Of a stretch of 64,000 bases of DNA, positions 48,829-59,886 are shown piece after piece (the first letter of the stretch is position 1; every line of letters starts with the position of its first letter). Both the position numbers and the translations under genes were made by a program. Source of the stretch: a virus; IMG/VR virus record IMGVR_UViG_3300032315_001401, positions 1-64,000 of that record. One strand, written 5' to 3'. The notes below the pieces were generated by a model, which searched no databases, had not been told where the DNA came from, and was given only the letters and a program-made list of their open reading frames with translations.

Positions 48829-50337
48829 TTAATCAGATTCGCCTGCTCTTGGTTTGTACATATCCTGTGATCTTTGAGCAGCAGCGGATTGTTGTGCTTT
48901 TTTCTTGGCAAGTCTATCGGCAGTTGTCTGTTCCGATCTTTTAGGACGGTCACGTTCCGAAACACCTCTTTCACCTTCATGTTGAGCAACAGTTTTTCCA
49001 CTTCTAGTCATCAATCCCTGACGGGCATTTGGCATTGACCTTAACATTTCTATGGCACGATCACGGGGTTTTCTTGGAGTGCCTTTTTCTTCACGTCTTC
49101 TTTCGTCAAGAATTTCAGTTTCTTCTGTCGAAACCATCACAATAGGATTCTTGGCACCCATCGCTCTTGCATAATTTTTAGCAAGATTAACTGCGGTTGG
49201 AAGAGATCTAGGATCCTTTTCTTCCATTTCCTTTTTTGCTTTCTTATCTGTTTCTTCCTTCATAGGAGTTTTCTTTTCAGGAAGACCTTTATGAGAAGTT
49301 GTAGCAAACTTCTTAGCTTCCTTTTTACTCATTCCAGAAGCTGCCTTTGCCACCTCTGGAGACGCTGGCATTTCACCTTTCTTTGCAGCATAAACCATTC
49401 CCATAAACTTTTGTTGCGCTTTGCTTACTGCTTTCTCCACAACAAAAGATCCTTCCATATCATAATGTGCTAATTGCATACCATAATTAGATTTTCCACT
49501 GGTTGATCCAGGAGCTTCGGGATTAACCTTTACTTTATTTTTCCCCTTCATTACATCAATCTTTTCTGCGTTTGCATCGGGGTTGGATGATTCATCATTA
49601 GCATCAGTAAGAAACTCTTCCTTTACACTGGAAGTATCTTGACCGTCTGGTTTTCCGCCCGTTTTACGCTGGATGGCATTATGAACTGCACCGCGATATT
49701 CTTTAGCGCCAGATTCAACTTTACCATCACCATCATAATCTTTTCCTGCCTTTGCTGCTGCAGTCTGCTCACCTTTCTTCTTTTCGCCCTCATAAGGTTC
49801 ACCATAACCAGTCATTTCAACTGATTCAATGTTTGAATTTGCACGAAGTTCACTAATCTTTTGGCGGTCTGCATATCTCACATAAGAGCGACCATCTTTT
49901 CCAGTGACTCTAACCTTATATTTCTTATGCTCGGATGTTTCTAACTTCTCCATATAAGTTAGACGAATTGGTTCTTCTTCTTTTTGAACCCCTTCTACAA
50001 ATACTTTAAAGAGTGCATTTGCCACACTAGAAGATGCCAAATCCTCAATATTAAAATCTTCTGCTTGAATTCCACCCTTTCCAAAAAGTTTTTGCTTTAC
50101 CATTGTTTTTTCCTGCTGACTCATGCTGCTATTTTGCATATATTGCGAATATGCCTGGCGAAGAGGAAGTTCTTCTCTTCTAGCTCTATATCGTATATCA
50201 TAAATTGCTTGCTTGGCTCTCTTTTCTGGAGTTTTACCACCCTCCTTCTTATCTCCCCCACCACCTTTCCCTGATGAAGGTGCCTCAGCAGGTGCGTGCT
50301 TTCTTGCTGGAAGCTCTTCAGCAATATGTTTTTTCAT
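48829..50337 (-). CDS. DUF3008-containing virion-type protein, 502 aa
   Basis: N-terminus MKKHIAEELPARKHAPAEAP has an I-A-E site; a Gly/Lys-rich linker follows. Around 205 GKDYDGDGKVESGAKEYRGA is an EF-hand-like calcium loop. Around 325, SKAQQKFMGMVYAAKKGEMP and GMSKKEAKKFATTSHKGLPE form the DUF3008 domain found in cyanophage structural proteins. C-terminus highly charged. Packaged-head location is inferred. Late promoter CATAAATA at 50370. Confidence 0.75.
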   Translation of the reverse strand: MKKHIAEELPARKHAPAEAPSSGKGGGGDKKEGGKTPEKRAKQAIYDIRYRARREELPLRQAYSQYMQNSSMSQQEKTMVKQKLFGKGGIQAEDFNIEDLASSSVANALFKVFVEGVQKEEEPIRLTYMEKLETSEHKKYKVRVTGKDGRSYVRYADRQKISELRANSNIESVEMTGYGEPYEGEKKKGEQTAAAKAGKDYDGDGKVESGAKEYRGAVHNAIQRKTGGKPDGQDTSSVKEEFLTDANDESSNPDANAEKIDVMKGKNKVKVNPEAPGSTSGKSNYGMQLAHYDMEGSFVVEKAVSKAQQKFMGMVYAAKKGEMPASPEVAKAASGMSKKEAKKFATTSHKGLPEKKTPMKEETDKKAKKEMEEKDPRSLPTAVNLAKNYARAMGAKNPIVMVSTEETEILDERRREEKGTPRKPRDRAIEMLRSMPNARQGLMTRSGKTVAQHEGERGVSERDRPKRSEQTTADRLAKKKAQQSAAAQRSQDMYKPRAGESD

Positions 50338-50346
50338 GAGAAAACT

Positions 50347-51660
50347 TTACTTCTTATTTTTTCTATACTTATTTATGAAATCAAGACCGTATGCTCTCCC
50401 ACCCGGTTGAAGATTTTCCTTTCCGGTGCCAATTGCTCCCGGAGTTTGTTTTGCAGCATACTTAAAGTATCCCAAAGTGCCAACTAAAGTATTTGGTTTT
50501 CCCGGTTGACGATATTCTTTATCCATCTTAACTTCAGTATATTCGCGCAAGTCTTTAATCCAAGATTTAAACATTTGACCAGATTCTGTGACACAAATCA
50601 AATAATTAGTGCCCCTGCGAATAATACGACCTACTAATCCAGTATTTAAATTTTCAACAACTTCACCAATTCTAAAAATAGTCTCTGTAATATAATTTTC
50701 ACGAAGGGATTGAAAATCAAGTTTTGGTGCAATCTCCCAAATATCCCAACCTTCCTTCACATTCATCGCACCACGAAGAATATTGAATAATTCCTTCGCT
50801 TCTGCTGGTTTGACTTCTGGAGGAAGACCTGAACGGAAAGTTTTAAAATCTCCTTCTGCAGCAGCAAGTCTCATTCTTGATGCAGACATACCCTCAACAC
50901 CCTTTGCATCAGGGTCTCTATCACCTGCGGAAACTACTTCTATATTATCAAAGTTATAAAGTTGCCCATTATACTGGGTGGAAAGTTTTTCAAATTCCTT
51001 AACTCTATCAGCACCACCAATAATTCTTACACCAGCATATCCATTATTATGTGCCATTTTTAAGACATCAAAAATTGTCTTTGTATTGGCATCATTGACT
51101 ATATTTCCTGCGTGCTGTGGATAAAACTTCTGCATATAAGCAATTTTTGTGTCCGGATCAAGAGGATTCTTTTTCTTATCCTGACTTCTTGATGGGAAAA
51201 TTAAATACTCACCACCATCTTCTTGTGCCGCAGATTGTGCTGCAACATCCATTAATTGTTGGTGTCCAATTGTAGGAGGATTAAAACGACCAAATGCAAT
51301 TGTCAAAGTGCCTTTGGTTTTTGGAACTGGAAGATATCGTGCCGGTGGTTGCTCTTGTGCCGCTGCTTGCTGCTCTGGTGCTGGAGGTTGCTCTGTAGGT
51401 GCCTGTTGTTGGGCAGTTTGTTGAGCGGTTGCTGGATCTTGATATCCGGGAGAGGCGATTGTTTTTTCCTTTTCTGTTTGCTTTGGATCTTTTCCAACTC
51501 GTTGACGCTTATTATAAAACTTGAGTTTGCCACCTTCTGTTTTTGCAACAAACTCACCTTGACGATCATACCAACCGCCGTGACCGTCTCCAACAAGACC
51601 AAGACGCTGTGCTTGCTGTGAGGCAGATGCTTCTGTTATGAATTGGAAAAAACTTTTCAT
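50347..51660 (-). CDS. Capsid-targeted nucleotidyltransferase, 437 aa
   Basis: N-terminus MKSFFQFITEASASQQAQRL matches the T4 capsid-targeting sequence with an I-T-E cleavage site. A Gln/Pro-rich linker (60-110) leads to TIAFGRFNPPTIGHQQLMDV (about 121-140), the H-x-G-H nucleotidyltransferase motif, and GVEGMSASRMRLAAAEGD, the I-S-S-T-x-x-R equivalent of the NMN/pantetheine adenylyltransferase family. The C-terminal ~130 residues include an unknown beta-rich domain (FRIGEVVENLNTGLVGRIIR). An enzyme packaged in the head is inferred. Confidence 0.8.
   Translation of the reverse strand: MKSFFQFITEASASQQAQRLGLVGDGHGGWYDRQGEFVAKTEGGKLKFYNKRQRVGKDPKQTEKEKTIASPGYQDPATAQQTAQQQAPTEQPPAPEQQAAAQEQPPARYLPVPKTKGTLTIAFGRFNPPTIGHQQLMDVAAQSAAQEDGGEYLIFPSRSQDKKKNPLDPDTKIAYMQKFYPQHAGNIVNDANTKTIFDVLKMAHNNGYAGVRIIGGADRVKEFEKLSTQYNGQLYNFDNIEVVSAGDRDPDAKGVEGMSASRMRLAAAEGDFKTFRSGLPPEVKPAEAKELFNILRGAMNVKEGWDIWEIAPKLDFQSLRENYITETIFRIGEVVENLNTGLVGRIIRRGTNYLICVTESGQMFKSWIKDLREYTEVKMDKEYRQPGKPNTLVGTLGYFKYAAKQTPGAIGTGKENLQPGGRAYGLDFINKYRKNKK
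50370..50377 (-). promoter_or_regulatory. Late promoter CATAAATA of the DUF3008 gene
   Basis: 33 nt before the ATG at 50337, inside the end of the upstream gene. Confidence 0.5.
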
Positions 51661-59288: not shown

Positions 59289-59405
59289 TTATTCTTCTTC
59301 ACATCCACGCCCACCTCCTCCAGGATTAAATGGAACTGCCTTTCCCTTTGGAACTCTTTGTTTTTTATGAGTTTTTGGATCAATCACCATGTGTGCTTGA
59401 GCCAT
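59289..59405 (-). CDS. Small Gly-rich protein after hsp20, 38 aa
   Basis: MAQAHMVIDPKTHKKQRVPK then GKAVPFNPGGGGRGCEEE. Overlaps the end of hsp20 by 26 nt. Seems conserved in cyanophages; function unknown. Confidence 0.65.
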   Translation of the reverse strand: MAQAHMVIDPKTHKKQRVPKGKAVPFNPGGGGRGCEEE

Positions 59406-59886
59406 CGGATAAGAGATCGTTTTGGTCTCTTGCATGAACTTCTGAAAAGATTTCATATACCTTTCTCTTCTGATGCTCTGGAATAACTCTATTTAGTTTG
59501 ACGGTAAGTAATCCATCAACATATGAAACATCTTTAACTTCAACATCATCAGAAAGAGTCCATGTACGAGTGAATGCTCTTTTTGCCAATCCCTGATGTA
59601 GATATTCATCACTAGAATCACCCGATTTCTTTGCTTCCACAAAGAGTTTATTCCATTCCGTAGTGACTTCGATATCTTCTTTTTTATATCCAGCAAGTGC
59701 AATTTCCAATCTGAAATCAACACTACTTTCTTTAATTAGATTATATGGGGGATAATTTGTGTGCGTTTCAAACGCCGTATCAAACCTTTTAAACCACTCA
59801 TCCATCCCAATACTATTTCTCCGAATATCCATCAGATATTTTGCAGTTTCTGGTACTGTTAGAGTAAGAGAACTTGTTCCAAACAT
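59380..59886 (-). CDS. hsp20: Small heat-shock protein (Hsp20/alpha-crystallin)
   Basis: 168 residues. FRLEIALAGYKKEDIEVTTE, KRAFTRTWTLSDDVEVKDVS and DGLLTVKLNRVIPEHQKRKV form the alpha-crystallin domain including the I-x-V-type end (V-K-L-N). Strong AAGGAGG ribosome-binding site. Phage Hsp20 may aid virion assembly or protect photosystems. Preceded by TATAAT at 59943 and the regA terminator. Confidence 0.92.
   Translation of the reverse strand: MFGTSSLTLTVPETAKYLMDIRRNSIGMDEWFKRFDTAFETHTNYPPYNLIKESSVDFRLEIALAGYKKEDIEVTTEWNKLFVEAKKSGDSSDEYLHQGLAKRAFTRTWTLSDDVEVKDVSYVDGLLTVKLNRVIPEHQKRKVYEIFSEVHARDQNDLLSDGSSTHGD

Follow-up and report, generated by a model that had tools for sequence, protein, structure and literature searches.

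The window, which is the whole stretch of 64,000 nucleotides that was analyzed, comes from a cyanophage and carries a gene for a 437 amino acid protein whose N-terminus is MKSFFQFITEASASQQAQRLGL. The protein matches the PHROG 395 profile (2.7e-102) and contains a CTP_transf_like domain at residues 121–224 (Pfam, E 1.2e-5). A tblastn search with this protein found 535 phage records, cyanophages being in the majority, of which 331 cover at least 80% of its length; the best relatives are S-SRM01 (66%) and P-SSM2 (58%), both over the full length. The orthologues in S-SM1 (SSM1_190) and P-SSM2 (PSSM2_194) are annotated as T4-GC190, and full-length homology together with synteny near gp41 and gp61 place our protein in the same family (T4-GC190/PHROG 395), whose members commonly bear the label 'cytitidyltransferase'. 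T4-GC190 belongs to the core set of 25 cyanophage genes (PMC3037559).

The domain layout was taken from an AlphaFold2 model built with 61 sequences from the window and IMG/VR (Table 1). Residues 1–19 are helical in part and residues ~12–50 form a small β fold. The earlier note had placed a disordered linker directly after an N-terminal tag, followed by a nucleotidyltransferase (NTase) domain; linker and NTase domain are confirmed, but the folded module lies between the tag and the linker. The same module is found in S-CREM2 gp12, another tagged virion protein (7e-8 against the 437 amino acid protein), and the module of the S-SM1 orthologue is common to gp14, also a tagged S-CREM2 virion protein (3e-7). 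The NTase domain contains the motifs GRFNPPTIGH (residues 124–133) and SASRMR (259–264). The C-terminal domain exists as a stand-alone gene in some phages (phrog_4808; T4-GC534, S-PM2p141 in S-PM2), and the label 'ribonucleotide reductase' that the family of this region bears in several cyanophages looks propagated and was treated as a misannotation.

Table 1. Features of the NTase gene and of related open reading frames in the window.
Feature	Position	Strand	Details
Whole gene, T4-GC190 nucleotidyltransferase with putative N-terminal capsid-targeting sequence	50347..51660	-	437 aa, ATG start
Putative capsid-targeting sequence, residues 1–10, MKSFFQFITE	51631..51660	-	comparison with T4 ipII/ipIII
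Small folded module, residues 12–56 (LGLVGDGHGGWYDRQGEFVAKTEGGKLKFY)	51493..51627	-	pLDDT 84–89 to ~residue 50; phrog_3561
Disordered Q/P/A-rich linker, residues 57–112	51325..51492	-	pLDDT mostly <50
HIGH-type nucleotidyltransferase domain, residues 113–300	50761..51324	-	pLDDT mostly >90; motifs, Pfam, fold search
C-terminal β-rich domain, residues 313–411	50428..50724	-	model and phrog_4808
Second tagged ORF of the phage's own genome, 55 aa, MKSFQKFMQETKTISYP...	59289..59456	-	start within the 3' end of hsp20
Downstream neighbor, DUF3008 region at residues 303–356	48829..50337	-	Pfam; homologue SSCSM1_93

The likeness of the N-terminus to the T4 internal proteins, noticed from the sequence at the outset, was verified: the ORF starts with MKSFFQFITE/ASAS and T4 ipII and ipIII both start with MKTYQEFIAE/A (NC_000866), the slash marking the cleavage position; T4 ipI starts with MKTFKEFTSTTTPVSTITEA (NC_000866). 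Ten N-terminal residues of T4 IPIII are enough for incorporation into the head, and mutagenesis assigned residues 4 and 7 to targeting and residues 8 and 10 to processing, cleavage by gp21 following L/I-X-E (PMC9026906). When homologous loci from IMG/VR and phage genomes were gathered without the use of the motif, the tag was present in 40 of 41, and the one exception (L073) looks frameshifted. We compared 30 N-termini of the family, namely 25 distinct ones from this motif-independent set together with S-SM1, P-SSM7, S-RIM2, S-CREM2 and S-SCSM1 (S-SM1 occurs in both parts). M1, K2, F4, F7 and E10 are invariant, position 8 holds either L or I, and positions 3, 5, 6 and 9 are free. Positions 4, 7, 8 and 10 coincide with the key residues of the T4 capsid-targeting sequence (CTS), so the conservation pattern is the one that T4 genetics predicts: the targeting residues F4 and F7 are kept in homologues collected independently of the motif, and the L/I-X-E cleavage form is found at residues 8–10 on sequence alone, as ITE/A here, in agreement with the I-x-E first pointed out at the prohead-protease position.

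The machinery that would read such a signal is encoded in the phage's own genome, which has an ORF for gp21 (G000 80897–81547) and also encodes gp22. Its gp23 has a maturation-like site, REFLYE/AP, the T4 counterpart being SFLTE/A, and thus a gp21-type protease occurs together with a matching site. Cleavage of the NTase by gp21 is predicted between E10 and A11, which would leave a mature N-terminus ASASQQ. The tag is missing in some orthologues (S-PM2, S-RIM44 and HTVC008M). An internal MKRFTNTYVKEG in S-PM2 was considered as an alternative tag and ruled out, as it lies inside the DUF6267 domain that is fused before the NTase.

A regular expression for the CTS was scored at the first ATGs of ORFs of at least 90 amino acids and at internal Met residues. 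At ORF starts it was found once among 78 in the window (the NTase gene), once among 217 in S-SM1 (the orthologue) and twice among 53 in 46 kb of T4 (ipII and ipIII), and at internal Met residues not once in 967. The phage's own 188-kb genome holds only two tag sites. In 13 complete phage records the DNA pattern occurs at 21 sites and the reversed pattern at none. The strict pattern was found in at least 120 stretches of IMG/VR, with 121 of 122 at ORF starts among the matches listed, and a control with the codons permuted, composed of identical letters, matched 11 times and never at an ORF start. A cellular collection of 257 Gb gave 32 matches, 10 of them at plausible ORF starts; one (L234), whose contig had been binned with a bacterium, is an N-terminus of the phage family studied here. 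The internal-Met, reversed, permuted and cellular-genome controls rule out a chance origin of the motif.

About half of the IMG/VR matches listed (62–63 of 122) belong to the NTase family, and the other tagged proteins among them form ~33 further clusters. Pfam supports DUF6267 (1.5e-102), DPBB (4.7e-11), AAA_33 (1.6e-10) and glucosaminidase (3.8e-13) among these clusters, HAD-like assignments were made by eye, and one cluster is weakly ADP-ribosyltransferase (ART)-like (Pfam PARP, 3.9e-4). For this ART-like cargo the best Foldseek E is 0.014 with a model pLDDT of 56, which is no firm demonstration of a PARP-like fold; short ART-like proteins with the tag MKTFQEFIAEA, recalling T4 Alt, occur in L114, L143, L202 and L298–L321, with weak fold support. 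An S77 (gp21-type) protease was found in 6 of 15 tested records of all sizes with tagged ORFs, a count over records of which some may be fragments; five of the six exceed 100 kb and the other is a 49.5-kb record.

The second tagged ORF of the phage's own genome, which was not listed among the ORFs, starts with MKSFQKFMQET. Conserved counterparts occur at 24 loci of IMG/VR, and each of the 11 that were read retains the tag; the collection of named phages gave no match. Another recurrent tagged family, of ~105 amino acids (MKSFKSFLSESVNISGDFNGNLY...), occurs in several cyanophages (L270, L272, L276, L282 and L186), and its S-SCSM1 member (SSCSM1_30) adjoins terminase and virion genes. In T4, gene 61.1 (L278; NC_000866 18966–19130), which encodes 54 amino acids and has an unknown function, has the CTS-like start MKTFKEFIKED and sits in the gp61–gp41 region, as does the cyanophage NTase. 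DUF6267, with a KWDG/KxDG motif and ligase-like by eye, was found in L093 (47295–48269), in L085 (1871–3043) and in the phage's own genome (G000 127935–128804); in several cyanophages it is the gene preceding the NTase, and in L100 it is tagged. Next to the NTase, the downstream neighbor starts with MKKHIAEELPARKH, and its DUF3008 segment is 75% identical over 55 amino acids to S-SCSM1 SSCSM1_93, annotated as a virion protein; this neighbor may be packaged too.

Members of the T4-GC190 family were detected by mass spectrometry in purified virions of S-SM1 (PMC3037559) and in virions of S-SCSM1 (PMC9602691, whose authors also cite S-CBWM1), S-SZBM1 (PMC9146016) and S-CREM2 (PMC10665884). All four homologues have the tag (MKKFSAFLNEA, MKSFLQFLKEA, MRFRQFIIEA and MKNFSSFLTEA, respectively), and a tag on the enzyme would account for its relatives in purified virus particles. 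The S-PM2 homologue, tagless and fused behind DUF6267, was not detected in virions; the bare homologues of the jumbo phages PA5oct and fENko-Kae01 have no CTS and no mass spectrometry note in their records, where some nearby genes have one. Detection is thus 4/4 for tagged and 0/3 for CTS-less homologues (Fisher p=0.029), in a small sample and with non-detection in the two jumbo phages meaning the absence of record notes.

In S-CREM2 the tagged ORFs are the SAM hydrolase gp6, the 'Cas9' gp12, gp13, the kinase-like gp14 and the cytidylyltransferase gp154, and 5/5 are in the list of 52 virion proteins (Fisher p=6.5e-4, with gp86, which is on that list, scored as untagged with its sequence unread). 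The tag of gp12 begins 16 residues in. With the strict anchored motif the figure is 3/3 (p=0.013), which is the safer one because the relaxed motif was settled after the sequences had been seen. S-SCSM1 has two tagged ORFs, of which the small SSCSM1_30 is without a virion-protein annotation and is a counter-example. S-CREM2 gp12 (L263 7704–10313) has both the tag and the GDGHG module; its Cas9 label is doubtful because a Pfam match is absent at E 0.05.

That an enzyme is packaged in the head, as the earlier note proposed, is well supported by the conserved T4 residues, the gp21 gene and gp23 site, the homologues in virions and the tag shared with other virion cargo. We find it very probable that the NTase is a virion-packaged enzyme, loaded by a T4-type CTS and predicted to be cut by gp21, to be ejected with the DNA and to act early. 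Targeting in cyanophages is inferred from the conservation, the controls and the co-occurrence with virion detection. Residues 1–10 would draw the protein into the prohead core, gp21 would cut after ITE10 and leave the ASASQQ form inside the head, and the mature enzyme would exit together with the DNA and work as infection begins; injection into the host is suggested by the likeness to the T4 internal proteins and Alt.

One other option is that the gene encodes an ordinary auxiliary metabolic enzyme (an NMNAT or cytidylyltransferase) made in the cell, with an N-terminus that arose by chance or serves stability, and that the virion detections are carry-over. The gene does sit close to gp41 and gp61 in the replication region, outside the head genes, and authors of a virion study raised the possibility that detected enzymes are carried over after CsCl (PMC10665884). 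Yet invariance exactly at the T4 CTS positions, the same N-terminus on unrelated proteins, the 5/5 of S-CREM2 and the repeated detection in virions of four phages make this option highly unlikely. It is also unlikely that the protein is packaged by its tag as an assembly or DNA-condensing component of the head, its NTase activity being of little weight. Such components are known among the T4 core and internal proteins, and the basic, disordered neighbor is annotated as a virion protein in S-SCSM1 as well. Against this, the catalytic motifs (GRFNPP..GH and SxSxxR) are conserved throughout, the tag is carried by other enzymes too, and the NTase is kept without a tag in S-PM2 and the jumbo-phage relatives.

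Another question is which substrate the packaged NTase uses. Its HIGH-type domain would most likely adenylylate a small mononucleotide. The (H/T)xGH and SxTxxR-type motifs and the NTase fold are present, yet they fit phosphopantetheine adenylyltransferase (PPAT) as well and are not diagnostic. Sequence profiles lean weakly to NadM/NadR/NadD, and the curated NCBIfam models of NMN/NaMN adenylyltransferases score far under their cut-offs (TIGR00482, 16.3 against 112). In the fold search PPAT ranked highest (2.6e-6), followed by human NMNAT (2.1e-5), and UPF0348/TmcAL-like proteins are also among the matches. In L101 and L134 the tagged NTase is joined at its C-terminal side to a P-loop kinase of the AAA_33/zeta type, which resembles the architecture of NadR (compared from PMC9503650); further tagged NTases were recognized by eye in L108, L128, L179 and L208. 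Adenylylation of NMN/NaMN is our leading candidate, held tentatively and at somewhat under even chances, the substrate evidence being in conflict. The NAD role suggested by the earlier note is accordingly a tentative candidate, with the weak lean of the sequence in its favor and PPAT first in the fold search against it. A quite possible option, to which we give a good but lesser chance, is that the enzyme is packaged and injected but acts on a substrate other than a pyridine nucleotide, such as phosphopantetheine or, together with DUF6267 in repair, a nucleic-acid end or tRNA. This would fit the PPAT and UPF0348/TmcAL-like matches and the position of the NTase next to DUF6267 (KWDG, predicted to be KxDG ligase-like), to which it is fused in S-PM2. 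It fits less well with the weak sequence matches, mostly of NadD, NadM and NadR types, and with the NadR-like kinase fusion of some tagged members, although the kinase type differs. A virion-carried NMNAT that enters the cell and alters NAD was already proposed for S-SCSM1 (PMC9602691), and an effect on NAD was proposed in PMC10665884 as well; if adenylylation of NMN/NaMN is correct, an enzyme that arrives with the DNA could maintain or restore NAD soon after infection starts.

These phages probably use the same tag generally, to load a variety of unrelated cargo. It is likely, in our judgment, that T4-like phages of aquatic habitats fill their heads with a large and exchangeable range of effectors by means of a single portable tag that is N-terminal and cleavable (MK-x-F-x-x-F-[IL]-x-E/A), a range that would probably include NTases, SAM lyase, kinase-like, ART-like, HAD, P-loop and DUF6267 proteins and small basic proteins. 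The use of the CTS for various cargo in T4-like phages was suggested earlier as a general device (PMC9026906), and in the literature searched no cyanophage protein was described as carrying a CTS. What was known before comprises the T4 CTS, the T4-GC190 family as a core gene family with members in virions, and the suggestion of an NAD role; the tag on T4-GC190 and its generality are new. Cyanophage papers reported an NTase, kinases, a SAM hydrolase and 'Cas9' in virions and could not decide between cargo and contamination, and a cleavable tag offers a mechanism. If the reading of a portable tag is true, the genome of an uncultured phage could reveal the proteins that it injects, and mining of abundant marine viruses for head-carried effectors becomes a simple motif search. 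Our results suggest that the T4 CTS is in use far outside the T-even phages.

Among known systems, the S-SCSM1 NMNAT is of the same family and 46% identical over the full length. The NadM/NadR/NadD NMN adenylyltransferases and CoaD (PPAT) share the fold and the HIGH-type motifs with weak sequence similarity. The phage head-packaged polyvalent effectors and ARTs are likewise virion-carried enzymes with a predicted early action, but they were inferred via head-protein fusions or gene context (PMC9503650), whereas the NTase is recognized by a cleavable N-terminal tag. T4 Alt, a packaged and injected ADP-ribosyltransferase, similarly travels in the head and serves at the very beginning of infection (PMC9026906), with a different fold and chemistry and a short propeptide of its own. 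With T4 IPII/IPIII, which are CTS-targeted, gp21-processed and ejected, the NTase shares the 10-residue N-terminal signal, the key residues and the form of the cleavage site. Yet the mature T4 proteins are small, basic and accessory, whereas the mature part of the NTase is a multidomain enzyme that is widely conserved in cyanophages.
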